The notes under the pieces are model-generated. The model was not told where the DNA came from. It saw only the letters and a program-made list of their open reading frames with translations, and made no database searches. Shown piece after piece: positions 130 to 27,529 of a stretch of 56,862 nucleotides of DNA. Source of the DNA: Comamonadaceae bacterium (GTDB lineage Bacteria; Pseudomonadota; Gammaproteobacteria; Burkholderiales; Burkholderiaceae_C); contig CANGLW010000017.1 in NCBI GenBank assembly GCA_947454955.1, forward strand, positions 1 through 56,862, read 5' to 3'. A program made the position numbers and the translations under genes. The first letter of the stretch is position 1. Each line of letters starts with the position of its first letter.

Positions 130-156
130 TTAAGTAAATAAAGTCTGTTCCGAATC
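130..156 (+). promoter_or_regulatory. sigma-28 (FliA) type promoter of fliC
   Basis: The -35-like TTAAGTAA (130-137) is followed by an 11-base spacer and the -10-like TCCGAATC (149-156). The general FliA pattern is TAAAGTTT-N11-GCCGATAA. The same local form with CGAATC or CGAGTC recurs upstream of the genes at 14028, 16634 and 27392. A good ribosome site (AGGAG near 200-204) lies before the flagellin ATG at 212. Confidence 0.65.
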
Positions 157-211
157 ATCTTCTAACAAGACTTCTTCTTGTTCATCGAACCACCTCTGAA
201 GGAGAATTTTC

Positions 212-1033
212 ATGTCATCTGTTATCAATACGAACCTGAGCGCAGTTGCTGCTCAAAACTCTTTGCGTTTGTCTGGCTTGAACCAAACTCAGGCCATGGA
301 ACGTCTGTCTTCTGGCATCAAGATCAACAACGCCAAAGACGACGCTGCTGGCTTGGCCATCAGCACCCGCATGACCGCCAACATCCGCGGCATTGCATCT
401 GCCATTCGCAATGCCAACGACGGTATTTCGATGACGCAGACTGCTGAGGGCAGCATGGCCTCGATTCAAGACAACTTGCAGCGCATTCGTGAGTTGGCTG
501 TGCAAGCCGCGAACGACACCAATCAAGACACTGACCGAACCACTCTGGACAACGAAGCCAAGCAACTCGTCGAAGAAATCGATCGCGTGGCAAATAATGC
601 CAAATTCAATGGCATCGACCTGTTGGCAGCGGATGACACCTTCTCGTTGCAAGTTGGCCCAGGTGCTAACGCTGATGACGTGATCAAAATCGACCTGAAA
701 GCCATGACTTCAGACAAGCTTGAAGTCGACAAATTGGACCTCACTGATTCGGCCAAGTCGGCAGACAACCTGGACGCCATCGACAAGGCTTTGATCACAG
801 TGACCGATGCTCGTGCCAGCATGGGTGCCTATCAAAACCGCTTGAACGCTGCCATTTCCAACCTGGAAAACACGTCCATGAATTTGATGGCTTCGCGCAG
901 CCGAATTCTGGACACCGACTACGCCAAGGAAACCACCAACCTGGCTAAGTCGCAGATCATTCAGCAAGCAGCAACCGCCATGTTGGCCCAGGCCAACCAG
1001 TCTTCGCAGTCTGTGCTGGCCCTGCTGAAGTAA
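212..1033 (+). CDS. fliC: Flagellin (short form, 273 aa)
   Basis: This is the structural subunit of the flagellar filament, exported through the flagellar type III apparatus and polymerised outside the cell. The N-terminal D0/D1 helices ([18 protein letters not shown], then [20 protein letters not shown]) and the C-terminal D1/D0 helices ([20 protein letters not shown], ending in LLK) are fully conserved. At 273 residues it is close to a minimal flagellin, with little between the two conserved ends, so the variable outer D2/D3 domains are almost absent. It has its own sigma-28-like promoter and a strong terminator, so it is probably monocistronic. A FliB-type lysine methylase follows on the opposite strand and may modify it. 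Confidence 0.97.
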
Positions 1034-1073
1034 CTTTCAGTTACCTGGCTGAAGAGTAGCCAGCCAGCTTATA

Positions 1074-1101
1074 ACAGCCACCTCCGGGTGGCTGTTTTTT
1101 T
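1074..1101 (+). terminator. Rho-independent terminator of fliC
   Basis: A nine-base stem, ACAGCCACC (1074-1082) with GGTGGCTGT (1087-1095), is closed by the loop TCCG and followed by a run of seven T (1095-1101). It lies 40 bases after the fliC stop. Confidence 0.93.
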
Positions 1102-1147
1102 GACTGTGTTGCCACCTCTAAGTTTGCCTTTGGCGGTTAAGAGCCCA

Positions 1148-2386
1148 TCAAGCTTTTAAAATTCTGAAGATCTTATTCAAGTCATTCCAACCAGAATTGT
1201 TGAAACAACCATTGATCGTGGCTGCAAACTTACTGTCGTGCTGGTAACGACGGCAAAACACTTGAACCGTGCGAACCATGGCATCAGCACCTGGCAAGCT
1301 GCGGTCATCAGCACATTGAATGGCTGTCATGAAACGAAGCAAGCCAAACCGCACGATCATTTTTAAATAATGTTCAAGCGGTGAGGTGGCGCCAAATGGA
1401 AAGCACTCCCTGAACATTTCGTTGATGATGTAGTTTTCAAAGAAGGAGGGATGCGCACGAAGAACAACACCCAGCCCCTCAAGACCACGCTTGTACTGCT
1501 CGGTCAGCATCGTCTTTGAAACCAAAACACCCCCATCAGACTTTTCAAAATGACTGGAGATACTTTCATCAACAAGTTGTTGATTTTTTGAATACTGATT
1601 GCCGGTTTTGAAAGCCCACAACTTCACAAAGATCTCAGCTTGTAATTCATGGTTGGCGTTGATATTTTCAAACAACTCACCCAACTCGCCAGCTTCCAGC
1701 AATTGGAACAGACCTTGTACTTTCTCAACGGCACTCTGCTTAGACGCTTGCTTGTTGTCAGCGGTTAAAGACTCGCACACCAGACCTAAAAAAACCATTT
1801 TCTGCCACAGCATCAAGCCTTGCGCCTTGATGATCTTGATGCAGAAAAAACGCACCTCATTCATCTCATCTATGCGCAGGCCGAATTTCGGCTTCAAATC
1901 CGTCACTGTGTCAATGCGCACATGAAAATCTGATTTTGAAAACTCAAAGGCATCGTCCTCAAGCAAAGCCAATCGAGCAGCCTGCGGGCAAGAAAGCGTC
2001 AATGACTGTTGGTGAAAATCACCCGTCTTATAGCTAAGCCTTGGGAAGGTGCTGCAGGTGTGCGAGAGCTTATCCTCGCCCAGTTCTTTCTGAATGGCGC
2101 AAAGACTGTCTTCAAGCATGGGGCATGCTTGATTGACTGGGGACATCTTCACGCGGGCATAGTTTTGATCGGTTGCTTGACTGCGAACTCGGCCTATCTC
2201 ATGCGTCAGACGTTCCTTCAAAGTTGGGCTTATTACTTTTTGATAGGCGTTGTAAGTTTTCTTATCAATGGTCACCCCCCAACCAGCGCAGCATGTATCT
2301 TCACAGCTGGCGCCAACACAAGCAAATTTTTGAGCGTAAAGCGGTGTGATGGCTTCAATTTTTTTGGTTGGATGCAAAACACTCAT
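1148..2386 (-). CDS. fliB: Flagellin lysine-N-methylase (FliB family)
   Basis: FliB proteins methylate lysine side chains of flagellin, a surface modification best known in Salmonella. The 412-residue product has the family's cysteine-rich N-terminus: C23, then CEDTCCAGW at residues 28-36, then further cysteines in ACPMLEDSLC and HTCSTFPR. These are thought to bind a metal or cluster. Its position directly after fliC, in convergent orientation, repeats the classic fliC-fliB association. A ribosome site (AGAAGG) precedes the ATG at 2386. By eye the gene is more AT-rich than the neighbouring flagellar genes, which fits acquisition by transfer. The second flagellin at 3303 is a possible additional substrate. 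Confidence 0.85.
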   Translation of the reverse strand: MSVLHPTKKIEAITPLYAQKFACVGASCEDTCCAGWGVTIDKKTYNAYQKVISPTLKERLTHEIGRVRSQATDQNYARVKMSPVNQACPMLEDSLCAIQKELGEDKLSHTCSTFPRLSYKTGDFHQQSLTLSCPQAARLALLEDDAFEFSKSDFHVRIDTVTDLKPKFGLRIDEMNEVRFFCIKIIKAQGLMLWQKMVFLGLVCESLTADNKQASKQSAVEKVQGLFQLLEAGELGELFENINANHELQAEIFVKLWAFKTGNQYSKNQQLVDESISSHFEKSDGGVLVSKTMLTEQYKRGLEGLGVVLRAHPSFFENYIINEMFRECFPFGATSPLEHYLKMIVRFGLLRFMTAIQCADDRSLPGADAMVRTVQVFCRRYQHDSKFAATINGCFNNSGWNDLNKIFRILKA

Positions 2387-2596
2387 GTCGAAAATCCTTC
2401 TGGGTCAACTTTCTCATTGAAAGCACGATTCACAGTGTCAGCAACATGCATGCCATAGACAGTCCGTCGACGGATAGGTATGAAAACCTCGTGACAAAAG
2501 AGTTGCTTTGCATGGTCCTGGTTCGTTTCAAGTGAGCGCCAGGGGCTTGCGCTGCCCATTTAGGCAAATCATTGCCGCTTTCAGACCACACATTCG

Positions 2597-2632: not shown

Positions 2633-2704
2633 TTCCCGCATGTTCATGGGGGTTGGTGCTGTCATTTTTTTGCCGCTCTCAACCTAAAAAGCCCTGAAAA
2701 CAAG

Positions 2705-2721: not shown

Positions 2722-2769
2722 AAATCGGTTGCATCTGATGTTTTTTTATGCAACACGCAGGAGCACCAC

Positions 2770-3237
2770 ATGCACATCGAGTTTCAGCAGGCTTTGAACC
2801 AATGGGTCAGCCAACAGTCTTTCAACTTGCGCGAAGCCTCGCGCTTCAGCCCGGCTGACTTCCGCGAAGGCGTGCAGTGGCTGGTGGTGAACGACCAGGA
2901 AGACATGGCCCAAGCCCTGGCCGACGCTGGCCTGGCCCTCTACCCTGAGAGCGAAGACATTCTGGCCATTGCCGGCTTGCTGGCCATGACCCGCCAAGAC
3001 TGGCCCCTGGCCATTGAATTGCTGCACGACCTGATGGCTGTGCAAAAAGACGAGGTGCAGCCCACCACCTGCATGATGCTGGCCCGCGCTCTGGCTTGCA
3101 ACCTGGACTTGGCTGAAGCCCGCGAGGTGCTGGATCAGGCCCTGCGCATCTGGCCTTTTGACGACACCCTTCTTAAAGAAAAACACGCCATGTTGGGTGT
3201 GCAGGATGTGATGCCTGCGCCGAGCATGCACAACTGA
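2770..3237 (+). CDS. TPR-like helical protein next to flagellin
   Basis: This is a 155-residue, probably cytoplasmic, all-helical protein. Repeating alanine/leucine-rich segments such as AQALADAGLALYPESEDILAI and ALACNLDLAEAREVLDQAL have the spacing of tetratricopeptide repeats. Small TPR proteins often act as chaperones or scaffolds for exported proteins. Here the gene lies directly after a sigma-54 promoter and 65 bases before the second flagellin, with no other promoter visible between them, so the two are probably co-transcribed. A flagellin chaperone or assembly role is an inference; I do not recognise a named family. Confidence 0.75.
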   Translation: MHIEFQQALNQWVSQQSFNLREASRFSPADFREGVQWLVVNDQEDMAQALADAGLALYPESEDILAIAGLLAMTRQDWPLAIELLHDLMAVQKDEVQPTTCMMLARALACNLDLAEAREVLDQALRIWPFDDTLLKEKHAMLGVQDVMPAPSMHN

Positions 3238-3302
3238 AACATCAGTGCCCATAAGCCAGAGGCTTTAACTTTTGCGCTTCTGGCGCACTCAGGAGATCAA
3301 AC

Positions 3303-5011: not shown

Positions 5012-6595
5012 ATGAGTTCTCCGAACAATGCGCCCACGATCCTCTGGCTCGACCCCCTCGAGCCGCTAGGGGTGTCTGAACACGCCCAGCTCACCGCTGC
5101 GGGCTTGTGCATCCACTGCATCCACACCCTGGATGACCTGCAAACCGCCCTGCAAAACCAGCAGGCGCAGGCTTTGGCCATCCGGCACGACCCCACCTAC
5201 AGCCTGCTTGAAAGCGCGAAAGAGCTTTTCAAGATTGCTGGTGAGAGCCTACCCCTGATTTGCCGCGTGGACCGTCGCCAAATGAACCTGGCGGTGGATG
5301 CCATGCGCCAAGGCGCGGCCTATGCCCTGGCCACCGACGACTGGTCTGCCTCCACCTGGCAAACCGCCGCAGAAGCGGCCCACGCCCAGGTGAAAGAACA
5401 AGCCCTCAAAGCCATCAGCTCGGTGGTGCCGTCTTACAAAGCGCAGCGCAACCAAAACACGGTGGCACCCGCCGCCCAGCCGCCACAACGCAAGCTGGTT
5501 TATGTCGACCCCATCAGCCGCCACTTGCTGGCCCTGGCACAACGTGTGGCCCAAGCCAATGTGACAGCCTTGATTGAAGGCCCCACCGGTGCAGGTAAAG
5601 AAATTTTGGCGCGTGTGTTGCATGAATCTTCAGCCCGTGCCAATGGCCCGTTTGTCGGCCTGAACTGCGCGGCCCTGCCCGAGCAGCTGATTGACGACAT
5701 GCTGTTCGGCCACGAAAAAGGCGCGTTCACCGGCGCGCAAAAAGACTTCAAGGGCCTGTTTGAACAAGCCCAAGGCGGTACGCTGTTCCTCGATGAAATT
5801 GGCGAGATGCCCCTGCACCTGCAAGCCAAGTTGCTGCGCGTGCTGCAAGAGCGCCAACTCACCCGCCTGGGTGCTGAACGCACGGTGCTTGTGGATGTGC
5901 GCGTGATTGCCGCCACCAACAAAGACCTGCGCACCGCCATGGCCACGCGCGAGTTCCGTGAAGACCTTTACTTCCGCATCAGCACCTTCAAGTTGCGTGT
6001 GCCACCGCTGCGCGAGCGGCCGGGCGACATTCTGCCCCTGGTGGCGGCTTTGCTGCTTCGCCATGGTGGCGAAGGCAAGCAGTTCTCGGTGAGTGCTGAA
6101 GCGCAAACCCAGTTGCTGGCTTATGGCTGGCCAGGCAATGTGCGCGAGCTTGAGAACGTGGTGCAACGCGCGGTGGTGTTGTGCAATGGTGAATGCATTG
6201 AAGCCCAACACCTGATGTTTGACGACCTGGCCGCCCTGGACAGCCTAGAGGGCGCTACACCCACGGCTGATGCCTCGGCCATGCTGCTAGAGCCCAGCTT
6301 TGCTGCCCCGCAGCCCATGACTGCCCTGCCCCTGCATGAGGCGGCGCCTGTGCATTTCGTGCCTCAGCAAGTGGCTGCCAATTTGCAAGCCGCTGTGAAA
6401 AACAACGAACACCAATTGATTTTGGCTGCCATTCAAAGCACCGACAGCCGCATGGAAGCCGCTAAAAAACTGGGCATCAGCCCACGCACGCTGCGCTACA
6501 AGCTGGCCAAGCTCAAGGGCGAGCCAGCCATCTCAAGCAATGCTCCAGGCAATGCACCTGGCGTTGAAACCAGCGCCTACGCCATGGCCAGCTGA
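5012..6595 (+). CDS. Sigma-54-dependent flagellar transcriptional activator (FlrC/FleQ-like)
   Basis: This 527-residue AAA+ enhancer-binding protein uses ATP hydrolysis to open sigma-54 promoters. The Walker A motif GPTGAGKE is at residues 190-197, the sigma-54 contact loop GAFTGA at 237-242, Walker B is in GGTLFLDEIGEM, and a Fis-type helix-turn-helix lies near the C-terminus (EAAKKLGISPRTLRYKLAKL). The N-terminal ~130 residues have the length of a receiver domain, but I cannot find the phospho-accepting aspartate in its usual place; the matching region reads ALAIRHDPTYSLLE. It may therefore act without phosphorylation, as FleQ/FlrA do, or answer another signal. It heads the fliE-fliJ operon and is the obvious activator of the promoters at 2705 and 4955. 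Confidence 0.9.
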   Translation: MSSPNNAPTILWLDPLEPLGVSEHAQLTAAGLCIHCIHTLDDLQTALQNQQAQALAIRHDPTYSLLESAKELFKIAGESLPLICRVDRRQMNLAVDAMRQGAAYALATDDWSASTWQTAAEAAHAQVKEQALKAISSVVPSYKAQRNQNTVAPAAQPPQRKLVYVDPISRHLLALAQRVAQANVTALIEGPTGAGKEILARVLHESSARANGPFVGLNCAALPEQLIDDMLFGHEKGAFTGAQKDFKGLFEQAQGGTLFLDEIGEMPLHLQAKLLRVLQERQLTRLGAERTVLVDVRVIAATNKDLRTAMATREFREDLYFRISTFKLRVPPLRERPGDILPLVAALLLRHGGEGKQFSVSAEAQTQLLAYGWPGNVRELENVVQRAVVLCNGECIEAQHLMFDDLAALDSLEGATPTADASAMLLEPSFAAPQPMTALPLHEAAPVHFVPQQVAANLQAAVKNNEHQLILAAIQSTDSRMEAAKKLGISPRTLRYKLAKLKGEPAISSNAPGNAPGVETSAYAMAS

Positions 6596-6609: not shown

Positions 6610-6954
6610 ATGGAACGCATCAATTCGCAAGTCAACATCCAGTCGATGTTGCAAACCATTCGGGCCTACCAGTCCAACGCCAGCAAAGGCATGGACGAGA
6701 TCGCCCCACGCCTGGATGGCCAGGTGCAAGGCGCCAACAGCTTCACCGACGCCATCAAGAGCAGCCTGAACAACGTCAATGGTTTGCAAACCAAGGCTGA
6801 CGAAACCGTCGACGCTTACGAGCGCGGTGAAGGTGTGCCACTGACCGATGTGGTGCTGAACATGCAGAAATCCTCGATCGCCTTTGAAGCCACCTTGCAG
6901 GTGCGCAACAAGGTGCTCAAGGCCTATGAAGACATTTTGAACATGCCGGTGTGA
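6610..6954 (+). CDS. fliE: Flagellar hook-basal body protein FliE
   Basis: FliE links the MS ring to the proximal rod in the periplasm and is needed for early flagellar export. The 114-residue product is of normal length and has the conserved C-terminal half: VPLTDVVLNMQKSSIAFEA, then QVRNKVLKAYEDILNMPV. The ribosome site AGGAG overlaps the end of the regulator gene, 14 bases upstream. It is second in the operon. Confidence 0.96.
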   Translation: MERINSQVNIQSMLQTIRAYQSNASKGMDEIAPRLDGQVQGANSFTDAIKSSLNNVNGLQTKADETVDAYERGEGVPLTDVVLNMQKSSIAFEATLQVRNKVLKAYEDILNMPV

Positions 6955-6983
6955 GCTGACAAGAACCAAGAAAGACCGACATC

Positions 6984-8828
6984 ATGGCAACCACCACAGC
7001 CCCTTTTCAGCCCGGTTTAGCCACCGCTGAGACCTCCAAAAGCACCGCCTTGACGGCCACCGGCAATGGCGCTTTGAGCAACACCGACTCCGGTGGTGCA
7101 CTGGCCATCGCCAGCCCACTCTCGCCGGTCAAAGACTTTTTGAACCAGCCCGACGTTAAAAAGTATGTGCCCCTGGCCTTGATTGCCTTGGCCTTGGCAC
7201 TGTTTGTGGTGGCCTATGTGTGGGTGAACCAACCAGCCTACCGCCCACTGGCGACCAGCATGAGCGAGGCAGACCAACAAGCCGCGCTTGAAGCGCTGCG
7301 CCAAGCCGAGTTCAAGCCGCAGTTAGACACCTCCACCGGCCAGATCACCGTGCCGGCCAACCGATACCACGAGGCACGCATTTTCTTGGCCTCCAAAGGC
7401 TTGCCCAAGGCGGGCAGCACCGGCATGGACTCGCTCAAAGACCAGTCGGCCATGACCACCAGCCAGTTCATGGAACAGGTGCGCTACACCACCGCCATGG
7501 AACAAGAGTTGGCGCGAAGCATCACCGCCATTGACACCATTCAATCGGCCCGCGTGCACCTGGCCATGCCCAAGCAGTCGGTGTTTGTGCGCGACCGCAC
7601 ACCGCCCAAAGCTTCGGTGGTGGTCACACCCTACCCGGGCCGCACCATCACAGCCTCGCAAGTGCAGGCCCTGGTGAACCTGGTGGCTTCCAGCGTGCCT
7701 TTGATGGCCACTGAAAACGTGGCTGTGTTGGACAACCAGGGCAAGCTTTACACCACTGGTTTGGGTGAAGCGTCGATTGGTTTGAACTCTGCGCAGTCAC
7801 AGCACAAGCAAAAGCTCGAAGAGCTGTACCGCCAACGCATCACCGATATTTTGAGTCCGTTTGTAGGTTCGGCCAACATCACCTCGCAAGTGAACTTGTC
7901 GCTCGACTTCACACAAACCGAGATGACCACCGAGGACTTTGACACTCGCGAAAAGGGTCCGAAAACCCGATCTGAAGCGGTCAGTGAAGACAAGAATTCG
8001 AGCAAGGTGCCCTCTGAAGGCGTGCCGGGCACCCTGTCCAACACCCCACCTGCTGCGCCGTCTGCAGCGCCCACCACCGGGCCTGCGGGCACCACCGGGC
8101 CTAAGGAAAGCATCAACTCGGCCACGCAGCGTGCCACCCGCAACTACGAGCTGGACCGTTCGGTCAAGCACGTGAAATCGGCCACCGGCACGATTGAGCG
8201 TGTGAGCGTGGCAGTCGTTGTGAACGAGCGCCCCCCGATTCCTGGCGAGAAAAACGCCAAGGGCGAAGTGGGACCGGACAAACCGAACCCCTACACCGAA
8301 GAAGAGCTGACCCGCATGCAAAGCCTGATTCGCGGCGTGGTGGGCTTCAAAGAAGACCGTGGCGACCTGGTGACCGTGGTGCAAGCCAAGTTTGAACCCG
8401 AGAAGGTTTACGACCTGAGCCTGCCCTGGTACAAAGAGGAGTCTGTGGTCAGCAGCGTCAAGAGCGGCATTGTGGGCGTGATGTTCCTGGCCTTCCTGTT
8501 CATGGTGGTTCGACCTGTGGTGATGCGCACGATGGGCTTGATGAAAACCCCTGACGAACTTGAAGCCGAACGCATTGCCAAGCTGCCGGTGGTCTTGCCT
8601 GATGGCGAGTTGACCGCAGAAGACATGAACTCGATCCAGTTGGGCGAAGGCGAGACCCTGGAGCAAATCAAGGCCAAGCTCAAGCCTAAGAAATCAAGTA
8701 TTTCGCTGGAGATGCTCGACACTGCCAACACCTACGATGACAAGGTGGCGCTGGTGCGGATGATTGTGGCGGAAGATACCAACCGTGTGGCTAGCGTGCT
8801 CAAGGGCATGATCAAGTCTTCACTGTGA
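6984..8828 (+). CDS. fliF: Flagellar MS-ring protein FliF
   Basis: FliF forms the membrane-supramembrane ring on which the rod, rotor and export gate are built. The 614-residue product has two membrane helices, near residues 62-80 and about 494-514. Between them are the periplasmic ring-building domains (PLATSMSEADQQAALEALRQ, then ARVHLAMPKQSVFVRD). The proline/alanine/threonine-rich stretch around residues 340-375 is a typical variable linker. The C-terminal tail after the second helix is the FliG-binding part. The ribosome site is weak (AAGAAAG), so expression may depend partly on coupling to fliE. Confidence 0.97.
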   Translation: MATTTAPFQPGLATAETSKSTALTATGNGALSNTDSGGALAIASPLSPVKDFLNQPDVKKYVPLALIALALALFVVAYVWVNQPAYRPLATSMSEADQQAALEALRQAEFKPQLDTSTGQITVPANRYHEARIFLASKGLPKAGSTGMDSLKDQSAMTTSQFMEQVRYTTAMEQELARSITAIDTIQSARVHLAMPKQSVFVRDRTPPKASVVVTPYPGRTITASQVQALVNLVASSVPLMATENVAVLDNQGKLYTTGLGEASIGLNSAQSQHKQKLEELYRQRITDILSPFVGSANITSQVNLSLDFTQTEMTTEDFDTREKGPKTRSEAVSEDKNSSKVPSEGVPGTLSNTPPAAPSAAPTTGPAGTTGPKESINSATQRATRNYELDRSVKHVKSATGTIERVSVAVVVNERPPIPGEKNAKGEVGPDKPNPYTEEELTRMQSLIRGVVGFKEDRGDLVTVVQAKFEPEKVYDLSLPWYKEESVVSSVKSGIVGVMFLAFLFMVVRPVVMRTMGLMKTPDELEAERIAKLPVVLPDGELTAEDMNSIQLGEGETLEQIKAKLKPKKSSISLEMLDTANTYDDKVALVRMIVAEDTNRVASVLKGMIKSSL

Positions 8829-8838
8829 AGGAAAGACC

Positions 8839-9891
8839 ATGGCAGACAAAGAAGTGATGGACCTTGAACCCGTGATGACCGACGCCCTGCGCGTCGAGCT
8901 GGAATACATGACGGGCTCGCAGCGCGCCGCAGTGCTCATGCTCTTGCTTGGAGAACAACAAGCCTCCGAGATCATCAAGTACCTGGACCCCAAAGAAGTG
9001 CAGTCACTCGGTGGCGCGATGGTGTCGGTGTCTGATGTGTCGCAAGAAGCGGTGAACGTGATCTTGGACGACTTTGTGGCCACCATCAAGAAGCAATCCA
9101 GCTTAGGGCTGGGCAATTCTGAGTACGTGGAAAAAGTGTTTCGCCGTGCTCTGGGTGAAGACAAAGCCGCCTCGGTGCTGGGCCGCATCATGCCGGGCTC
9201 GGGCACCAAGGGCCTGGAGATTTTGCAGTGGATGGACGCCCGTGCCATTGCCGACATGATCAAAACCGAGCACCCACAGGTGATTGCCATCATCTTGTCG
9301 GTGCTGGAATACCAAGTGGCGGCAGACGTGCTGAACTTCTTGCCGCCTATCGTGCGACCCGAAGTCATTCAACGTGTGGCCTCGCTGGAAACGGTGCAGC
9401 CTTCGGCCATGGATGAGCTTGAAGCCATCATGAAGAAACAGTTCTCCAACAACTCGTCGGCACAGTCGTCGAGCTTTGGCGGTATCAAGGCCGCAGCGCA
9501 GATTTTGAACGCCACGAAGACCGAGCTGGAAGCCTCGATCATGACCGGCCTGGAGAAGATCGATGCCGATCTGATGCAGCGCATCCAAGACAATATGTTC
9601 ACCTTCGAGAACCTGGTGAGCGTGGACAACAAGGGCATTCAGGTGCTGATGCGCAATGTGGAGCCCGACCTGTTGATGGTGGCCATGAAAGGCGCCAGCG
9701 AAGAAGCCAAAAACCGTTTCTTCGACAACATGTCCGAACGTGCGCGTGGCATGTTCCGCGACGACATGGAAGCCAAGGGCCTCATGCGCCTGGCCGATGT
9801 GGAAGAAGCGCAGAAGAAGGTCATGCGTATTGCACGCAAGTTGTCCGATTCTGGCGAGTTGGTCTTAGGCGGCGGAGCAGACTTTGTCTGA
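8839..9891 (+). CDS. fliG: Flagellar motor switch protein FliG
   Basis: FliG is the rotor component that contacts the stator and transmits torque and direction changes. The 350-residue product is slightly longer than usual, with a short N-terminal extension. The conserved middle motif (EHPQVIAIILSVLE) and the C-terminal torque domain (FTFENLVSVDNKGIQVLMR, with the charged helix near residues 280-300) are present. It starts 11 bases after fliF with a GGAAAG ribosome site, and its stop codon overlaps the proposed fliH start. Confidence 0.97.
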   Translation: MADKEVMDLEPVMTDALRVELEYMTGSQRAAVLMLLLGEQQASEIIKYLDPKEVQSLGGAMVSVSDVSQEAVNVILDDFVATIKKQSSLGLGNSEYVEKVFRRALGEDKAASVLGRIMPGSGTKGLEILQWMDARAIADMIKTEHPQVIAIILSVLEYQVAADVLNFLPPIVRPEVIQRVASLETVQPSAMDELEAIMKKQFSNNSSAQSSSFGGIKAAAQILNATKTELEASIMTGLEKIDADLMQRIQDNMFTFENLVSVDNKGIQVLMRNVEPDLLMVAMKGASEEAKNRFFDNMSERARGMFRDDMEAKGLMRLADVEEAQKKVMRIARKLSDSGELVLGGGADFV

Positions 9892-10942
9892 TGCCCTCAT
9901 GGCCTTGGCCAATCAGAACAGCGGGCCTAAAGAGGCGGCCATTTGGCAGCCCCTGCCCTCGCTCAAAGCTTTGGACAACAAACGCTTTGTGCGGGTTCAA
10001 GATGGCTCGGGGCAAACCTCGCATTTCACGCGCTTGTCCTACAAGAGCCTGAGCGTGCTGCCCCCTGCTTCGGCAACGCATGAAGCCCCAAAGCCCGGGC
10101 GTGAGGCGGCTGACGACAACACCGTGAGCGCGCCAGCTGGTGGGCTGCACGACGATGAGATTGAGGCCATTCGGCGACTGGCTTACGAGCGCGGCTTGGC
10201 CGAAGGGCGCGAGCTGCAAATGGCTGAACAAGCTGCTGCCCTTGAGACCAGCCAAGCTGACTCAGAAGCTGAACAAACCCAACAAATGCGGTCCTTGCTG
10301 GAGAACATTCAGGCCAGCATTGAAGGGCTGCACGAGCACCCTGCCCTGCGCTATGAGCCGCTCAAACGCTTGGCGGTGCACCTGGCAGAGCAAATGGTAC
10401 TCACCGAGCTCACCATCGCCCCCACAGGCATTCAACGCTTGATTGAGCGTTGCCTTGAAACTTTGGACGTGCCCGCTTCAAGCCAGGTGGTGGTGGACCT
10501 CAACCCCGATGATTTGGCTTTGCTGCAAAGCCGCCTGGGGTCTGAGATGCCAAGCTCTTGGCGACTACAAGCCCATGCCGACTTGTTACCCGGCAGTGTG
10601 AAGGTCACGGCTGATGATGCCGTGGTGACCGACCTGGTGGAACATCGCTTGTCAGCCTTGGCCGCCAAACTGCTGCAAGAACCCCAACGCTGGCAAGCGC
10701 AAACCTTGTTTGAACCACAACGTTTGCAAGCGCGTGGCCAAGCGGCGGCAGTGCAAGACGCCATGCCCAAGCCAACATTTGGCGCAGTTGATATGTCCGA
10801 AATTAGGCCTGAAACCCTTGATGCAGCTGGCGATACTGCTATAGATTCCGTAGAAGAGCCTATGGCCAGCGCAGACGACTTAGAAGCCTCGAATCTATCA
10901 GCGCCACCACCTGAACCAACGGGCGAGGACCATGCAGACTGA
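9884..10942 (+). CDS. fliH: Flagellar export ATPase regulator FliH
   Basis: FliH forms the peripheral stalk that holds the FliI ATPase at the export gate. The 352-residue protein has a charged coiled-coil centre (IEAIRRLAYERGLAEGRELQ, typical of FliH) and a conserved C-terminal domain (LAVHLAEQMVLTELTIAPTG through VVVDLNPDDLALL). I chose a TTG start at 9884 because CGGAG lies at a suitable distance upstream; the first in-frame ATG is at 9899 and has no good ribosome site. The C-terminal ~90 residues are acidic and variable. It overlaps both fliG and fliI. Confidence 0.9.
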   Translation: MSDALMALANQNSGPKEAAIWQPLPSLKALDNKRFVRVQDGSGQTSHFTRLSYKSLSVLPPASATHEAPKPGREAADDNTVSAPAGGLHDDEIEAIRRLAYERGLAEGRELQMAEQAAALETSQADSEAEQTQQMRSLLENIQASIEGLHEHPALRYEPLKRLAVHLAEQMVLTELTIAPTGIQRLIERCLETLDVPASSQVVVDLNPDDLALLQSRLGSEMPSSWRLQAHADLLPGSVKVTADDAVVTDLVEHRLSALAAKLLQEPQRWQAQTLFEPQRLQARGQAAAVQDAMPKPTFGAVDMSEIRPETLDAAGDTAIDSVEEPMASADDLEASNLSAPPPEPTGEDHAD

Positions 10943-12254
10943 CTTTGCCGTAGAGGTGGAGCGTCAGCTGCCACAACTCAGCACCCCTCGGCCCGAGCGC
11001 TGTGGGACCTTGGTGCGGCTGGTGGGTTTGCGTTTAGAGGCGCGCGGCATCATGGCACCCATTGGGTCTTGCTGCGAAATCAGCACCCAAGACGGCCAGA
11101 CCATCGAAGCTGAGGTGGTGGGCTTCAACGACAAAACCCTGTACCTCATGCCCCTGACCGACCCGGTGGGTGTGGCCCCTGGCGCCACGGTACGGGTGGT
11201 TAAAGACATGGGCAGTGTGTGCCTAGGCCCTGAACTCTTGGGCCGCGTGCTCGATGGCCGCGGGGAACCTCTGGACGGCTTGCCCAAGCCCCGTTGCGAC
11301 ACACGCCTGAGCTTGCTGGGCTTGCCTTTGAACCCCATGGAACGCGGCCCGATAGACCGGGTGCTGGATGTGGGCGTGAAAGCCATCAACGGCATGATGA
11401 CCCTGGGCCGCGGTCAACGCGTGGGCCTGGTGGCTGGCTCTGGCGTGGGTAAAAGCGTGTTGCTGGGCATGATGGCCCGTTTCACCAAAGCCGATGTGGT
11501 GGTGATTGGCCTGATTGGCGAACGCGGCCGCGAGGTGCAAGCCTTCATTCAAGAATCTTTAGGCCCTGAGGGTCTGGCCAAGTCGGTGGTGATTGCCGCA
11601 CCGGCCAATGTGTCGCCCGTGCTGCGTTTGAAATCGGCCCACATGACGCACCTGGTGGCTGAGTATTTCCGAGACCAAGGTTTGAATGTGCTGATGCTGG
11701 TGGACAGCCTCACGCGTGTGGCCCATGCCCAACGTGAAATTGGCCTGGCCATTGGTGAACCCCCTACCGCCAAAGGCTACCCGCCTTCGGTGTTTGCCCT
11801 GTTGCCCAGCCTGATTGAACGCGCCGGTGTAGGCCGACACGGTCATGGCTCCATCACCGCGATTTACACCGTGCTGGCCGAGGGCGATGACGCCAACGAC
11901 CCGATTGTGGACATTGCCCGTGCCTCGCTGGACGGCCAGGTGATGCTCTCGCGCAAACTGGCCGATGCCGCCCACTACCCCGCCATTGATTTGAACGGCT
12001 CGATTTCCCGGGTCATGCAAAACCTGCTGGCCCCTGAAGACCTGAAGCTGGCCAACAAGTGCCGGCGCTTGTGGTCGCTCTACCAACAAAACCAAGACTT
12101 GATTCAGGTGGGCGCCTACGAAGCCGGCAGCAACCCACAACTGGATGAGGCCATCCGCTTGCGTGACAGCTTAGAGAGTTTTTTACGGCAAGACATGCAC
12201 GAGTGCGAAGACGAACAAGGCACGCGTGCGCATTTGCGTGAGATGCTGTCATGA
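10932..12254 (+). CDS. fliI: Flagellum-specific ATP synthase FliI
   Basis: FliI is the hexameric ATPase, related to the F1 beta subunit, that energises delivery of flagellar substrates to the export gate. The 440-residue product has the P-loop GSGVGKS near residue 168, GLIGERGREVQAFI, the Walker B region LNVLMLVDSLTRVAHAQRE, and the type III ATPase signature PPSVFALLPSLIERAG. It starts inside the end of fliH (11-base overlap) and ends in an ATGA overlap with fliJ, so the three are translationally coupled. Confidence 0.98.
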   Translation: MQTDFAVEVERQLPQLSTPRPERCGTLVRLVGLRLEARGIMAPIGSCCEISTQDGQTIEAEVVGFNDKTLYLMPLTDPVGVAPGATVRVVKDMGSVCLGPELLGRVLDGRGEPLDGLPKPRCDTRLSLLGLPLNPMERGPIDRVLDVGVKAINGMMTLGRGQRVGLVAGSGVGKSVLLGMMARFTKADVVVIGLIGERGREVQAFIQESLGPEGLAKSVVIAAPANVSPVLRLKSAHMTHLVAEYFRDQGLNVLMLVDSLTRVAHAQREIGLAIGEPPTAKGYPPSVFALLPSLIERAGVGRHGHGSITAIYTVLAEGDDANDPIVDIARASLDGQVMLSRKLADAAHYPAIDLNGSISRVMQNLLAPEDLKLANKCRRLWSLYQQNQDLIQVGAYEAGSNPQLDEAIRLRDSLESFLRQDMHECEDEQGTRAHLREMLS

Positions 12255-12709
12255 ACTCGACCGTGGTGGCCCGCCCCTGCTGGACGCTGCTGGCGCAAAA
12301 GGCGCAAGACGAGGCTGATTTGATTCAGCAAGAAATGACGCAAACCCGACACCGCTTGACGAAATTACACGCCAGCCGTGACCGGGTTCAGAAGATGTAT
12401 GACGAGTATTGCGAGCAGCTCAACAAACCAGGCAGCAGTTCGCAAGGCATGCGCGAGGCCATGAGCCAGCGCCAATTCATGGCGCAGTTACTGACCCTGC
12501 TGGAGCGCGTTTCTACAGACATCTTGCACGCCACCAACCTGCTTGAGGGTTACCGTGAGCGCCTGTTGGCGGTTGAGAAAGAGCGCATGAAAATGCAGTC
12601 TTTGGCCGAACAAAATGAACGCGACTTGAACCAACAAAGCCGCAAACTAGAGCAACGACGAATGGATGAACTGGGCGTGATGCAGTTCAACCAGCGTATG
12701 GCGTCATGA
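12251..12709 (+). CDS. fliJ: Flagellar export chaperone FliJ
   Basis: FliJ is the small coiled-coil stalk protein that rotates within FliI and connects it to FlhA. The 152 residues are almost entirely helical and charged (KAQDEADLIQQEMTQTRHRL, ERMKMQSLAEQNERDLNQQS), as expected. The start overlaps the fliI stop as ATGA. It is the last flagellar gene here; fliK, fliL and fliM do not follow, because the next gene is convergent two bases later. Confidence 0.9.
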   Translation: MNSTVVARPCWTLLAQKAQDEADLIQQEMTQTRHRLTKLHASRDRVQKMYDEYCEQLNKPGSSSQGMREAMSQRQFMAQLLTLLERVSTDILHATNLLEGYRERLLAVEKERMKMQSLAEQNERDLNQQSRKLEQRRMDELGVMQFNQRMAS

Positions 12710-12711
12710 AC

Positions 12712-13113
12712 TCAGCACACGGCTTTCATGATGTTGAACAGCGGGGTGCCGGGGGGTATGGCTTGGGCATCACGCAAAATGCCCTGTGTGTCGAGCACAT
12801 CCCCTTTGGCCATGGCACCACTGTGCATGCTGAACTGGCGCATCAACACGGTTTGGTCTTTGCAGTTGATTTCCATGTTGGTACGGGTGGACAAATAAGA
12901 CGCCCCACGCGAGGTGGTTTGGGCTCTTTTGTAGTCCATGATCGACCAGAAGGTGCGGGTGTCACCGACACGTTTGAGGGTTTCCGTGTCGACGTAGTAG
13001 ACGGAGTTGTCACTGGAGCCAATGGCCTTCATCTCGGCAACGGCCAGCGATGCATGCGTGACAGTGAGCCCCGCAAGAGCGGTCAAAATGGCAAGTTGGT
13101 GTGTGCGTTTCAT
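12712..13113 (-). CDS. Secreted surface-adhesin protein E-like protein
   Basis: This 133-residue protein has a signal peptide (MKRTHQLAILTALAGLTVTH, cleavage near AVAEM). The mature part contains VYYVDTETLKRVGDTRTFWS, MEINCKDQTVLMRQF and a C-terminal cysteine, which is the layout of the small surface-adhesin protein E family found widely in Burkholderiales. The two cysteines could form a disulfide. I chose the ATG at 13113 because it begins the signal peptide; the longer upstream frame has no such logic. The function in this lineage is unknown. It is convergent with fliJ and divergent from the lipoprotein at 13149, only 35 bases away. Confidence 0.7.
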   Translation of the reverse strand: MKRTHQLAILTALAGLTVTHASLAVAEMKAIGSSDNSVYYVDTETLKRVGDTRTFWSIMDYKRAQTTSRGASYLSTRTNMEINCKDQTVLMRQFSMHSGAMAKGDVLDTQGILRDAQAIPPGTPLFNIMKAVC

Positions 13114-13148
13114 GCATGCAATATAAATTAAAAACCAGGATTGGCAAC

Positions 13149-13973
13149 ATGCCCCGCTTACAAACACGGTTGACGAGCTTCTTGATGGCCCTGGGACTTG
13201 CACTGGGTCTTGCTGGTTGCGGTGGGGGCGGCAGCTCAAGCAGCACGCCCTTGAATGTGAGCCCGGGGGTTTACAGCAGCTCGGCAAATAACGATGAAAT
13301 TTTGGTGGTTCTGGTTAGAAACACCTTCGATGCTCAAACACCTAATTGGTTTGGCCTGAAGTTCACAAACGGCAGTGCAGATCCAGATTTTTATGCTGCG
13401 TCTATCAGCAACATAGGGACCTCATCGCCCAGTGGCACGAGTACTAAATATTTTCAAAATATTTCTAATCTCACGCGCACTGGCACCACAAGCTTGAGCA
13501 TGCCGACCGAGACAAAATTAAGCAGTACGGTCGCTTTGCAATCTGACGGTCAGGAAAACGCCAACACACTCACTTGGCAAACCGACACTCTCAATGCCAA
13601 TCAATACGTCTTTGGAGTTTCTGCAACGAGTTTGACCGGCTTTTGGACAGGTCGGTGGTCTTATGGCGCAGGCTCAGCCGGAAGTCAGAACCTAGATATT
13701 CAAGCAGGTCAAGCAATTGCAAACCAAAGCATAGGTAGTAACTGCCCCATAGGCAACGCACAGCTATCGCCACTGGAAAACGGTGTCAATGTTTACTCTG
13801 TCCAATTGAGTGTATCGGCTGCGACCTTATGCACAGCCTTTAACCAAGCTGCCGTCAGCTTTAAAGGGCTGGCCTATATCTCCGCCAGTCCGATATCCGG
13901 GAAAACTCGTCGCCTTAACTTGATGGCGGTTTCTACCAACGGAAAAGCCATTTTTTATCGTGGCGATCAATAA
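13149..13973 (+). CDS. Putative lipoprotein of unknown function
   Basis: The 274-residue product starts with a lipoprotein signal (RLTSFLMALGLALGLAGC) whose lipobox is LAGC, followed by glycine and serine runs (GGGGSSSS). The mature part is rich in threonine, serine and asparagine and looks all-beta, with no motif that I recognise. The residue after the lipid-modified cysteine is glycine, so outer-membrane sorting is likely. Base composition is lower in GC than the flagellar genes. The stop codon TAA forms the first bases of the sigma-28-like -35 element of the next gene. Confidence 0.7.
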   Translation: MPRLQTRLTSFLMALGLALGLAGCGGGGSSSSTPLNVSPGVYSSSANNDEILVVLVRNTFDAQTPNWFGLKFTNGSADPDFYAASISNIGTSSPSGTSTKYFQNISNLTRTGTTSLSMPTETKLSSTVALQSDGQENANTLTWQTDTLNANQYVFGVSATSLTGFWTGRWSYGAGSAGSQNLDIQAGQAIANQSIGSNCPIGNAQLSPLENGVNVYSVQLSVSAATLCTAFNQAAVSFKGLAYISASPISGKTRRLNLMAVSTNGKAIFYRGDQ

Positions 13974-13997
13974 AGTTTTCAGAACTCGTGTCGAGTC
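13971..13997 (+). promoter_or_regulatory. Sigma-28 type promoter of the membrane carbonic anhydrase gene
   Basis: TAAAGTTT (13971-13978) is the textbook FliA -35 sequence. After an 11-base spacer comes GTCGAGTC (13990-13997), which resembles the CGAATC-type -10 seen before fliC and the two giant genes. The expected start of transcription is about 20-25 bases before the ATG at 14028. Confidence 0.6.
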
Positions 13998-14027
13998 ATT
14001 GACTGAGCTTATTACGGGCATCTCATC

Positions 14028-15290: not shown

Positions 15291-15312
15291 TCAGGTTCTA
15301 ACCGGTCAGTTT
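15285..15312 (+). terminator. Imperfect hairpin between convergent genes
   Basis: AACTGA and TCAGTT pair at the ends and AGGTT/AACC pair inside, with a small bulge. It lies across the stop codon of the carbonic anhydrase gene and ends at the stop of the gene at 15312. It lacks a clear T tract, so I rate it as a weak, possibly bidirectional, terminator. Confidence 0.35.
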
Positions 15313-16235
15313 CAAAACAAGTAAGTACCGGCCAGGGTTTGCACCTGGCCACCGGTGCTCATCTTGAAGCGGGCCAGGCCCGCACTGCGCTGGGTGTTGA
15401 TGCCCCCCAGGTCAAGCGACGAAATGCCCCGGGCCTTGAGTTCTTGTATGGCTCGCCACAACAGCAAGTTGTTGGCGCGTGCCTTGCGGGCCTCTTCATT
15501 GCTCCAGCCCACTTGGTAAGTGGCCACACTGCCGTGGATCAAAAAGATCATGCCTGCAGCTGGCGTTTTACCCATGTCAACACGTAAGCCCAAGGTGGTG
15601 GCAGCCGGGTTCTTGCGGGCTTGCAAATACACATCGAAGAACTGCGGTGGCAAACCGTCTAAACCGCGCGATGCACGTTGCTTGAGTTCAGCGTCTAACA
15701 ACCAACGGTAGGCCCCGGGGTTAGGCGCCATTTTGACAACCTTCAGCTCGGCGTTTTCTGCAGCTTGCAACTGGTTACGCCAATTGCCTTCCAAGTTGGC
15801 ACGCAGTGCGTCTTCAGACAGTCTGAGGTCAAGCATGACAGTAGATGCCCCTGTGACCACCCGGCGCAAGGGCGACAACCCCACAGAAGAGCCGGCCAGC
15901 TCAGCAGGTGTGACCACATGCAGCTTAAGCCCCCCCAAGGGCAGGCTGTGTTTGATGGCCCGGTAAGCCCGCAGCTTGTCAGCGGCGTCCAGGTCAGCCA
16001 GCCACACCGGGCCGCGCGAGCACAACACCACCGCAGCAAACGCACCCCAGCACCGCAGGATGAACTGCGCCAGGGCCACAGGTGTGCCGTCTTGTTCAAC
16101 CATGACACGTTGCACACCTACGCCCAGCATTTTCATGGTGGCGCCGTAGGCCCAGTCTTGCTGCAGTGAGGCACCGGCCTGGCTGTGGGCTGCATCCCAA
16201 GTACTGGCTTGATCAGGGTTCCAGAGCGTGCGCAT
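15312..16235 (-). CDS. FemAB/GNAT-like acyltransferase domain protein
   Basis: The 307-residue protein has the two-lobed pattern of the FemAB-related acetyltransferase fold. Features include LRANLEGNWRNQLQAAENA, AAGMIFLIHGSVATYQVGWS, ANNLLLWRAIQELKARGISS and the C-terminal LDLGGINTQRSAGLARFKMS. Members of this group transfer amino acids or acyl groups in peptidoglycan or exopolysaccharide synthesis. The substrate here cannot be told from sequence. I prefer the ATG at 16235; an in-frame ATG at 16274 would add 13 residues. The exact family name is less certain than the fold. Confidence 0.7.
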   Translation of the reverse strand: MRTLWNPDQASTWDAAHSQAGASLQQDWAYGATMKMLGVGVQRVMVEQDGTPVALAQFILRCWGAFAAVVLCSRGPVWLADLDAADKLRAYRAIKHSLPLGGLKLHVVTPAELAGSSVGLSPLRRVVTGASTVMLDLRLSEDALRANLEGNWRNQLQAAENAELKVVKMAPNPGAYRWLLDAELKQRASRGLDGLPPQFFDVYLQARKNPAATTLGLRVDMGKTPAAGMIFLIHGSVATYQVGWSNEEARKARANNLLLWRAIQELKARGISSLDLGGINTQRSAGLARFKMSTGGQVQTLAGTYLF

Positions 16236-16278
16236 GGGCCATAGAATAGTCGAAAACCATCCCGCCTCCAGCAACCCT

Positions 16279-16479
16279 ATGCCTTGGAAATTCCTTCAAC
16301 GAACCCCGGTTCAAACCATCATGGGCCAGCGCATCCCCGAGCCGCGCCCCACGCTGATGGCCGTGGTATGGGCCTTGGTTTACCTGGGACTGCCCCTGCT
16401 GGTACTGGGCACGATGATTGACCTGGTCATCCAGTTCACAACCGGGGTGTGCACAGGCTGGTGGTGTTGGTTCAACTAG
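16279..16479 (+). CDS. Small single-span membrane protein
   Basis: A 66-residue open frame with a proline-rich, basic N-terminal part and one long hydrophobic stretch (LMAVVWALVYLGLPLLVLGT), ending in a tryptophan/cysteine-rich tail. No family is recognised. It is divergent from the FemAB-like gene at 44 bases distance. Codon use looks like that of its neighbours, which favours a real gene, but I see no convincing ribosome site. Confidence 0.5.
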   Translation: MPWKFLQRTPVQTIMGQRIPEPRPTLMAVVWALVYLGLPLLVLGTMIDLVIQFTTGVCTGWWCWFN

Positions 16480-16548
16480 GGCAAAGCACAGCCTGACGAC
16501 CGAGACCCACAGCGTTGAAGGCGATTGACGAAAAGCGGTCAGCGCGGT

Positions 16549-16575
16549 TCAAGTATTTCAAGGTCAAGCCGAATC
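16549..16575 (+). promoter_or_regulatory. Sigma-28 type promoter of the 1436-residue repeat protein
   Basis: TCAAGTAT (16549-16556), an 11-base spacer, then GCCGAATC (16568-16575). The first five bases of the -10 match the FliA consensus GCCGATAA exactly and the element is nearly the same as that of fliC. The gene starts at 16634 behind AGGAG (16623-16627). Confidence 0.65.
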
Positions 16576-16633
16576 ATGGTGAGCACGTGAAAACCCTGCC
16601 TTGGGCGGGGTGCACCAAGATTAGGAGTAGGAC

Positions 16634-27000: not shown

Positions 27001-27392
27001 TTGACGCTTAAATTGACTGCGTTGTCAGCCAGGTTGTACTGAGCAACGTGGGTGTTGTTTTGCAGCGCCGTCATGTCTGAGACCAGCGCGTCTTTGACAT
27101 TGAGTTTGTAGTTGCCCGCCACCTTGCCCAAAATGACCGAGGAGGTCTTGAGCTGGCTGGACCTGATGGTCAGCGGGTCTGTGCTGGGATTGAGTGTGAT
27201 GGCACTGATACGGCTGCTGAGCTTTTGCAGATCACCCCAGCTGGATGAGATGTTGCTGGCTGTATCTTCGATCGCCACACTGCCAGTTTTGTAGGCGTTG
27301 AGCGTCACCAAGGCCTCCGCCACGGTCAAAGACTGACCTGATGGCGGTTTCACAACCAAATTGGTAGACGAGTAGACGGCAGATACACTCAT
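21027..27392 (-). CDS. Giant beta-repeat protein, 26 units of about 80 residues
   Basis: The 2121-residue product is almost entirely made of about 26 units of some 81 residues. Each unit follows one pattern: V-x-D-[ST]-A-x-N-I, eight residues later L..L..L, then KL..I...D....L.IT..Q, then KI...Y.L.V..V.A.DA. Examples are VVDTAANISKNWGAL, VSDTADNVAQQLNEL and IVDSVANIASRLDAL. I see no cysteine, no signal peptide, no RTX nonapeptides (GGxGxDxxx) and no membrane segment. Repeats of this general type occur in very large predicted secreted or surface proteins of proteobacteria, where the function is unknown. It converges on the other giant gene. Two sigma-28-like elements lie upstream. Ribosome site before the ATG at 27392 is poor. 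Confidence 0.85.
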   Translation of the reverse strand: MSVSAVYSSTNLVVKPPSGQSLTVAEALVTLNAYKTGSVAIEDTASNISSSWGDLQKLSSRISAITLNPSTDPLTIRSSQLKTSSVILGKVAGNYKLNVKDALVSDMTALQNNTHVAQYNLADNAVNLSVNLDRLQAAISTPTPKLSAITVTGAANNLSLTYAQLGANAGALGKITNNYTLTVNDVAVDKVTEVAQNTRVSTMNIKDTSKNIGDGIDNLDNLVSRIGKINDTDRGLMTLTSAAYSVSGMVLGKIYTGYQVAIQTATLPEALSASKNARVQSVKVSDSGANFVANLASLNKVGSKVTAIELTDVSNTVSLTYSQFTTYAKLISKITTPGVTFSVKGVSLSNLAALQSNSAVTNIGISDSGTNVSAALDSLKDNAKVTSITLTGSKNTIALTADQLEQDQNVLDEITNKYTLAVSRVKAEDAFSIGTTAGVTSVSVIDTGEQIAAHLDDLQGLGGTLKAVAQSDTSVLEITANQYVKDKGALAKLGNSYKLSVSGVLASTATSVGSDARVNDFTVADSARNISTYFNSLDALGNKLTRIDQSDGGVQVDLVQSQYLTKSVTVEKINGGDYSLNVTGVTAGYAAQIAQNNNVTSLKVADSGKNVVNYLSGLSAAATRADLTLDISITNSRVPMVITADQYDQEAPALAAITSNYALAITGVAADDAVTYAAYDHVDSVSVLDSAEMVTGTLASLKSLGDKLAGITLDDDNVLNWTSTQFALNQSVLSKISNAYELNVSEVAAASAAKIASQANVTKIYVTDTSGNLSTFLDSLAFLDGKLAGVTETDSATPIDITAKEWLSDASTLAKFNGGEYTVNVHGATAAQASQMDADDHVVKINIVDTAVNLVAKLDELENLDPGVLGDITISGNPSIALTATQLKDHEAILSKISNLHSYAVSEASVADALEFSTRQDVNSIVVSDEGTAVANDIAGLTALGGKLKSVAITTTTPMSLTGAQYAASTTTLKKISNSYSLALTNVTTQNAVTWSNTGTIVSMDIVDSVANIASRLDALNNFNVKINQIESSDSGVLLTFNASQLSTAASVLAKVDANVGWRVKNMSVADALSATRPARIDKLTVADSSQTIGASLDALQALSTKLESITQLGSTVPMSITATQLVNDADTLEKITNNYNLKVSEVLADNAAATAATPHVYTIAVKDEVANLLSNLSTLQSLGAKVSTIEATDPTNHLAITEAQYGANRVAINKMASGILVDVSSVKAANAYTIASDLRVATVNVSDTSAALSIHLDTINALGTKLGEIAQTDSLALTLTVEQFKADSQALSAFVTPPDVQVRNVAAYEATAMASSLNSFGDNSSFAVTDSAASIKANWDVLNALSNNDKLTAISVADPRNIIALTNDQFAASADLFPKLTGSYSYSVSGMSFEDAQDLLTSDAAHVSSVSVLDASESIASNLNALQAMGSKLSAITQDGTAATMTITRSQMLLDAAALGKITDDYTINLTDATAAQALSLATDSKVVNVGVVDTAANISKNWGALSQLGTKLVSVDVSDDDNALNITESQIDVNGAVVLLMPDNTVFVNNALAEHASGIADNYPNARINVVDTALSIAQNFDALAALNANAGEEQLNSIRVSDGQTLALTAEQWSLDAKAVEKLAGSYSITVSDVAAADAHDVATASHVSGLTVKDSSANVFGQLAELESLAATGKLTNIVLEDDDVMHLTQAEYNQYANALGRIKANLNLDVTDVAAADADDIASNTAVVSLAVKDTAQHITDNLFELHALATTLTSVEVTDGQEVQMSYEQYLARSDLAEKISGGTFDLSAAPIGSLTALTSDAAVTHFAITGSSSDLAGRWDDLLAAGTQLTAVTQTGSPVTMSITAGQYANSADLLAKFTDTYSLSVSGVLAGDAKSLTIADAFVASVAVTGTAQQISTNLNDLLGLEDKLLSISQTGTADVAVTALQYQGNPQLLGLFATPVNFAVSDLNAADAVLIGKQSEVAHFTVSDTADNVAQQLNELQGMADKVTGITFTDASPVLVVDASDWAADATVVAKIQSNYALNLTGVFAADATTLAGVALPAKATGVQLAVSDSEQNILNNLADLNTLELASKLSEISVSDTHVLNVTAQEAADYSAVLTRLSSQDTYEITA

Positions 27393-27401
27393 GGCCTAAG
27401 T

Positions 27402-27428
27402 GATTCGACCTGATCGTCAAATTCTTAA
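27402..27428 (-). promoter_or_regulatory. Proximal sigma-28-like element of the 2121-residue gene
   Basis: Reading the minus strand, TTAAGAAT (27428-27421), an 11-base spacer and GTCGAATC (27409-27402). Its transcript would start within about 5-8 bases of the ATG, giving almost no leader, so this copy may be weak or decorative compared with the distal one. Confidence 0.4.
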
Positions 27429-27459
27429 GCCGCTCAGCCCCTCTGCGGCTGATATTCAC

Positions 27460-27483
27460 AAAGCGGCAAAACCTTGCCGCTTT
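27460..27483 (-). promoter_or_regulatory. Perfect inverted repeat containing CGGCAA-N4-TTGCCG
   Basis: AAAGCGGCAA and TTGCCGCTTT form a perfect ten-base stem with the four-base centre AACC. It lies in the leader expected from the distal promoter. Its core matches 14 of 16 positions of the first direct repeat near 2597. It may be a regulator-binding site, an RNA hairpin, or a weak terminator of the upstream nucleotidyltransferase gene. Confidence 0.5.
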
Positions 27484-27502
27484 TGATTTCAAGGTGGTCA
27501 AT

Positions 27503-27529
27503 GATTCGTCATGACCAGCCATAACTTAA
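27503..27529 (-). promoter_or_regulatory. Distal sigma-28-like promoter of the 2121-residue gene
   Basis: On the minus strand, TTAAGTTA (27529-27522), an 11-base spacer, then GACGAATC (27510-27503). It has the same layout as the fliC element at 130 and gives a leader of about 105 bases. Confidence 0.55.

Follow-up and report, generated by a model that had tools for sequence, protein, structure and literature searches.

The 56,862-nt window analysed here, contig CANGLW010000017.1 (C17), belongs to the genome assembly of a freshwater-type Comamonadaceae bacterium (G000; 2.78 Mb in 101 contigs, estimated 94.8% complete). It carries five elements of sigma-28 promoter form: one before the flagellin gene fliC, one before a gene for a membrane-anchored carbonic anhydrase (CA), one before the gene of a 1436-residue repeat protein (giant 1) and two before that of a 2121-residue repeat protein (giant 2). 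Our analysis suggests that these elements are probably promoters of FliA-2, one of two sigma-28-type proteins encoded in the assembly, which would transcribe the late flagellar genes together with CA and both giants. More narrowly, CA and at least one giant are very probably under the same switch as the filament, as judged from the DNA sequence.

An initial annotation had placed the five elements and described the open reading frames (ORFs) behind them, and both were borne out: all five were located in the window, each with 11 bases between its two octamers (Table 1). A slightly broader pattern, TNAAG-N16-CGANTC, matched the window five times, at exactly these sites. In 100 shuffles that preserved dinucleotides it matched 0.30 times on average; the richest held 2 and none reached 5. 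The elements have the layout of a sigma-28 promoter, with TNAAG as the -35 and a CGA-containing -10 at a fixed octamer spacing of 11 bases; the -10 predicted here is CCGAATC. No known RNA family reached its gathering score at 1-30000. The enterobacterial form, THAAG-N16-CCGATA, was tried and discarded, matching five times genome-wide (control 0) and never on contigs C19, C25, C30 or C71. A single match to it at 28699-28725 (minus strand), 25 nt before a nucleotidyltransferase gene (27570-28673), is probably due to chance.

Across the whole genome the pattern as first written gave 11 matches, five in the window and six elsewhere, and its reversed control gave seven. Because such a control implies several chance matches per genome, the count alone is weak and the weight rests on placement. 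All six matches outside the window stand in front of genes from a single polar-type flagellar system, and none of the 11 looks stray: seven stand before flagellar-system genes, fliC included, and four before CA and the giants. The motif is enriched before the known FliA genes of this genome (fliC, fliS, flgM, fliD and, via the relative G012, flaG), an enrichment on which the initial annotation had staked its claim. A tighter form, allowing up to three mismatches, matched seven times (control 2), at the flagellar sites minus that of the LPP20-family lipoprotein gene, plus giant 1 and fliC. A single 84-kb contig of G012 carries the giants, CA, fliC, flaG, flgM, the LPP20 gene, fliA-2 and fliS; in the 80,000 bases of it that were scanned, all eight strict matches precede flagellar-system or giant genes.

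We scored the sites with a 29-position matrix built from 10 sites before flagellar-system genes, six from this genome outside the window and four from relatives. Among approximately 113,700 window positions the CA site ranked first, giant 1 second and the distal giant 2 site third, with the proximal giant 2 site seventh and fliC ninth (scores in Table 1). By chance the window is expected to hold 0.16 matches of at least 17 bits and 1.4 at the 12-bit level; for three or more of at least 17 bits the Poisson probability is 0.0006. No chance match at 24 bits arose in 6 Mb of simulated sequence. Given these expectations, the CA site is strong by itself, the giant 1 site needs its conservation, and the fliC and proximal giant 2 sites depend on where they lie and on being conserved. 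In 22 stretches totalling 356,421 bases, which were picked around genes of interest and so give no genome-wide error rate, 22 matches reached 17 bits; nine of these had served for training. The remaining 13 are four G012 flagellar-system sites, two from G001 (flgM and the homologue of a 311-residue protein), CA in three genomes (own, G001 and G011), giant 1 in two (own and G012), the distal site of giant 2, and L108:13658, which lies in another genus. The best-scoring site of all (38.0 bits) is that of the 311-residue protein gene, kept before its homologues in G012 and G001; the protein (L024:10601-11536, minus strand) contains a single hydrophobic stretch, and no Pfam family fits it convincingly. 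Shuffles, genome placement, matrix ranks and score expectations together reject chance as the source of the whole site set, a rejection that does not extend to giant 2 taken alone.

FliA-2 control is predicted most firmly for CA, where we regard it as highly likely. The spacing of the CA site is unchanged in four species (G000, G012, G001 and G011), and two of them differ from the rest only towards the site's end, which reads CGAGCC in G012 and CGAGTT in G011. Upstream DNA has diverged, the alignable block starting at 13968 in the comparison with G012 and at 13971 with G001; with G011, where the block begins at 14024, an alignment served to recover the site. The gene order fliI-fliJ, CA, FemAB-like gene is common to all four genomes, and full-length CA relatives, found in three of the 59 other genomes searched, lie beside the same flagellar genes. 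The genome's other CA copy (contig C12) has no such site, and none was found before the adjoining FemAB/GNAT-like gene. The protein has a hydrophobic stretch at its N-terminus, followed by a charged linker (about 170 residues; no convincing family, best Pfam E 0.013) and an alpha-type catalytic domain (residues 204-418) that aligns with solved enzymes. The domain keeps the QFHFH and HFVH stretches, whose histidines bind zinc in alpha-carbonic anhydrases, and CA is assigned to that class. The hydrophobic stretch would anchor the enzyme, probably facing the periplasm, and the initial annotation's view of CA as part of the swimming-state surface fails in so far as the outer surface is meant.

For giant 1 we consider FliA-2 control likely. 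Its site is identical in G012 at all 27 positions, within a 91-nt identical run (16543-16633) that reaches the start codon; the 26-nt block upstream of the run agrees at 17 positions, and within the gene the difference at synonymous sites is 0.31. For giant 2 such control is somewhat better than an even prospect, our estimate being lowered because the site that is kept scores under 8 bits in G012. The initial annotation had given this gene two sites: both are present, and only the proximal pattern is kept in G012, the distal one lying behind a 13-pair hairpin. This hairpin, as stable as which 7 of 200 shuffles fold, was not called a terminator by a consensus scan; if it is one, it would hinder the distal site.

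Several observations weigh against the sites being working FliA-2 promoters, in addition to the seven control matches above. First, about five chance matches per genome are expected at 18 bits, the strength of giant 1, and the fliC site itself reaches only 11.0 bits. Sites counted as real yet scoring below 17 bits are fliC in both genomes (11), CA in G012 (15.0, with the CGAGCC end) and proximal giant 2 (12.3), and the second flagellin gene shows no FliA-2-type site (best score 1.4 bits in 3100-3303). Second, the CA -35 opens with three bases that double as the stop codon of ORF 13101-13973, here and in G012. Third, conservation at giant 1 spans the whole leader and is not specific to the site; with 91 nt identical up to the start codon, the leader itself may be regulatory. 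Fourth, the better giant 2 site is lost in G012, and transcription from the proximal one, 9 nt ahead of the start codon, would leave the mRNA with almost no leader. Lastly, in a report mapping FliA in Escherichia coli, 30 of 52 sites lie inside genes and many make no detectable RNA (PMC4183435), a caution that not every site works as a promoter.

One could accept the CA site as a FliA-2 promoter and take the giant sites, those of giant 2 above all, as chance matches, the giants using other promoters. The expected five matches per genome at 18 bits speak for this, as does the loss of the better giant 2 site and the weakness of the kept one. We nonetheless judge it improbable, since three matches of at least 17 bits fall in one window where 0.16 are expected, the giant 1 site and leader are identical in G012, the giants lie near flagellar genes in both genomes, and no sigma-70-like promoter was found in 27300-27700 or 13700-16750.

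Two proteins exceed the FliA_WhiG cut-off (189.6 bits), FliA-1 on C19 (276 bits) and FliA-2 (C25:2354-3001, 230.7 bits); the latter provides a cognate sigma-28. C19 carries an FlhDC-type flagellar set (FlhC by Pfam; flg, flh and mot names read from translations). C25 holds flhF (129.7 bits against a cut-off of 174), a MinD-like flhG, fliA-2, fliS, motA and motB, and with C17, C30 and C71 makes up a polar-type set. Two sigma-54 activators belong to this set, as does an FlgT-like gene, whose FlgT_C score of 18.3 bits stays below the cut-off of 27. A stricter form of the motif, TNAAGNTT-N12-CCGARTC, matched 13 times in 26 genomes of the genus (reversed control 3): five times in G000, three times each in G012 and G001, and once each in G011 and G024. 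The fifth G000 match is at C2:129542, and for the G024 match the scan listed no downstream ORF of 80 residues. Twelve of the 13 fall in G000, G012, G001 and G011, the four genomes whose FliA-2-type match (229-237 bits) is full-length; G006, with a partial match, has none.

It is very unlikely that the sites are real and read by FliA-1, or by both sigma factors. FliA-1 is encoded in the assembly, and sigma-28 proteins share similar promoter preferences; yet 17 of the 26 genomes, own included, show a FliA-1-type match (273-284 bits), a distribution that the stricter motif does not follow. In addition, G012, G001 and G011 keep the sites and have no FliA-1-type match, and a 20-kb stretch of C19 holds no site above 11 bits. 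The initial annotation's motility sigma factor survives as a sigma-28 type, specifically the polar-type FliA-2 and not FliA-1. Two flagellar sets occur in this one assembly, each under a different master regulator, along with two sigma-28 proteins. C19 may have been binned wrongly, but its tetranucleotide composition is within the range of the other pieces of this genome. If C19 does belong to the genome, its two sigma-28 factors would appear to use separate promoter forms.

From the motif, its genome-wide placement, its conservation and the gene families we infer the following order of events. In the general FliA/FlgM model, FlgM holds the sigma factor until the hook is complete, and FlgM and FliA-2 are both encoded in this genome. 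FliA-2, encoded behind flhF and the MinD-like flhG, would be held in this way, and would then read the sites and transcribe the late flagellar genes along with CA and the two giants. The giants would leave the cell by type I secretion and serve as a coat or adhesin of the swimming cell, and CA would buffer periplasmic CO2/bicarbonate and protons in flagellated cells. Co-expression with the filament, as first proposed, is partly supported, by the seven of 11 sites at flagellar genes and by site conservation, with giant 2 its weak part. A more specific role is doubtful, if conceivable: CA, anchored in the inner membrane and facing the periplasm, as a working part of the polar motor surroundings, made with MotA and MotB, its CO2/bicarbonate exchange feeding or clearing stator protons or letting the swimmer respond to CO2, and the giants as a coat or tether of swimmers only.

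Type I secretion is our best guess for the giants, and they are probably exported this way, in view of their length and repeat build, a giant 2-type repeat within an RTX protein of another genus and the adaptor genes; their placing at the cell surface is part of the same proposal. Type I adaptors above the cut-off number three in this genome (C2, C9 and C37), two in G012 and one each in G001 and G011; none was found in G023 and G024. A two-ABC locus type is common to G000 and G012 and was not shown in the G001 and G011 stretches (from translations). No type I secretion genes adjoin the giants among the window genes scanned, and neither giant has a HemolysinCabind match in Pfam, the test made for RTX nonapeptide repeats. 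One giant 2-type repeat occurs in another genus (G135), in an 863-residue RTX-repeat protein (L108 6190-8781; L108 = G135:C1:782001-798000) near two ABC-transporter-like ORFs, as read from translations. The same stretch has a FliA-2-like site of 17.6 bits (13658-13684) before a small lipoprotein gene. Some Campylobacter proteins co-expressed with the flagellum use the flagellar channel. The giants, if co-expressed with the filament, could leave by that route too: they have no obvious N-terminal signal peptide, and FliA-dependent co-expressed proteins are described for Campylobacter (PMC6196472). The type I-like length and repeats, the RTX protein of G135 with its ABC-transporter-like neighbours and the adaptor genes here and in G012 make this route unlikely, and type I secretion is preferred.

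Giant 1 is built of ten repeats, each about 117-145 residues long and most of them bearing an RDLNGD-like motif, and giant 2 of 26 repeats of about 80 residues, counts that follow by construction from repeat models built from the giants themselves. Structure prediction gave, with high confidence, an alpha/beta solenoid for giant 2 (mean pLDDT 91.8 for a piece of four repeats) and a mostly beta structure for giant 1 (pLDDT 85.3 for a piece of two repeats). Both are acidic (pI 4.4-4.6), contain no Cys in 3557 residues and are under purifying selection (crude dN/dS 0.09 and 0.14 in comparison with G012). W_rich_C (PF07483) stays below its cut-off in giant 1 (25.0 against 26.2 bits). Solved structures gave, by sequence, one match at E 0.4 for giant 2 and none up to E 1 for giant 1. 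Foldseek returned 8 and 23 matches at E <=0.001, rejected as homologues because the query-normalised TM-score was at most 0.24 among the 50 matches listed for each; neither giant had a global fold match.

Both giants recur in one of 59 other relatives, G012 (91 and 93% identity). Giant 1 was absent from 398 other family genomes, and the giant 2 repeat profile (E 1e-6) found one carrier, G135, among 398 other genomes of the order; G012 is missing from both listings, and each sample therefore overlooks at least one carrier. Giant 2 gave no match in viral_contigs, one weak match in plasmids (32% over 13%) and one record in genome_contigs. In the searches made, the giants represent two repeat families with almost no relatives, and they offer a handle on the swimmer's envelope additions.

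The rest of the flagellar region is listed in Table 1. Further along, 37171-41475 (plus strand) encodes two TctC receptors, an arylmalonate decarboxylase-like protein, an amidohydrolase and an HpcH/HpaI aldolase, unrelated to the finding.

Table 1. Predicted FliA-2-type sites and associated features in the window and, with contig prefix, elsewhere in the genome
Feature	Position	Strand	Remarks
Site of fliC	130..156	+	55 nt 5' of start codon; 11.0 bits; kept in G012
Site of CA	13971..13997	+	30 nt 5' of start codon; 24.2 bits
Site of giant 1	16549..16575	+	58 nt 5' of start codon; 18.0 bits
Proximal site of giant 2	27402..27428	-	9 nt 5' of start codon; 12.3 bits
Distal site of giant 2	27503..27529	-	110 nt 5' of start codon; 17.5 bits; not kept in G012
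Hairpin between giant 2 sites	27456..27486	-	13 pairs
Site before fliS	C25:3096		same-strand motA, motB downstream of fliS
Site before flgM-flgN	C30:4623		
Site before LPP20-family lipoprotein gene	C30:9259		read as FlgP-like
Site before 311-residue protein gene	C30:11687		same cluster; no convincing family
Site before fliD	C71:2686		
Site before gene truncated by end of contig C71	C71:4285		G012 counterpart is flaG
CA, membrane-anchored alpha-carbonic anhydrase, 420 aa	14028..15290	+	PF00194, 2.6e-41; aligned to 6im0 at 2e-54
FemAB/GNAT-like protein	15312..16274	-	adjoins CA also in G012, G001, G011
Giant 1, 1436 aa	16634..20944	+	
Giant 2, 2121 aa	21027..27392	-	
fliC flagellin, 273 aa	212..1033	+	PF00669, PF00700
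FliB flagellin lysine-N-methylase	1148-2386	-	adjoins fliC; NF038110, 226.5 bits
Second flagellin, 526 aa	3303..4883	+	no FliA-2-type site
Sigma-54 activator	5012..6595	+	head of fli genes; PF00158
fliE, fliF, fliG, fliH, fliI, fliJ	6610..12709	+	Pfam matches
Lipoprotein-like ORF between fliJ and CA	13101-13973	+	differs strongly in G012

Assembly of the swimming tail seems, from these predictions, to be tied to remodelling of the cell envelope. Control of surface proteins by sigma-28 is known already; the unusual part is a carbonic anhydrase as cargo, and the literature searched held no report of one under sigma-28. In one report a carbonic anhydrase mutant was scored as a growth defect (PMC3948606). 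CA, located where a flagellar operon ends and preceded in four species by a sigma-28-type promoter, would link CO2/proton chemistry to flagellation, which is directly testable. CA shares with the alpha-carbonic anhydrases (PF00194) the catalytic domain and its histidine-bearing stretches, and differs from them in its anchor and long linker. In the Campylobacter Feds, non-structural genes belong to the sigma-28 regulon (PMC6196472); the likeness to the predicted sites here is one of regulation, and the genes in our case are giants and an enzyme. The closest precedents appear to be FrhA of Vibrio cholerae and the attack-phase regulon of Bdellovibrio bacteriovorus. Transcription of FrhA, a flagellum-regulated hemagglutinin and RTX adhesin, is reported to have fallen without FlrA, FlrBC or FliA in strain O395, and its dependence differed in strain A1552 (PMC6890996). 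FrhA, too, is a large repeat protein tied to flagellar regulation, a tie predicted here from sites; the giants differ in having other repeats, no RTX motif by Pfam, a position at the edge of flagellar genes and a carbonic anhydrase as companion. In B. bacteriovorus, TTAAG-N16-CCGATA precedes flagellar and non-flagellar genes, those of cell-surface proteins among them, and a FliA-like consensus is present in 92 of 140 mapped promoters (PMC3627812), whereas our set comprises 11 predicted sites, none mapped, with CCGAATC as the -10.

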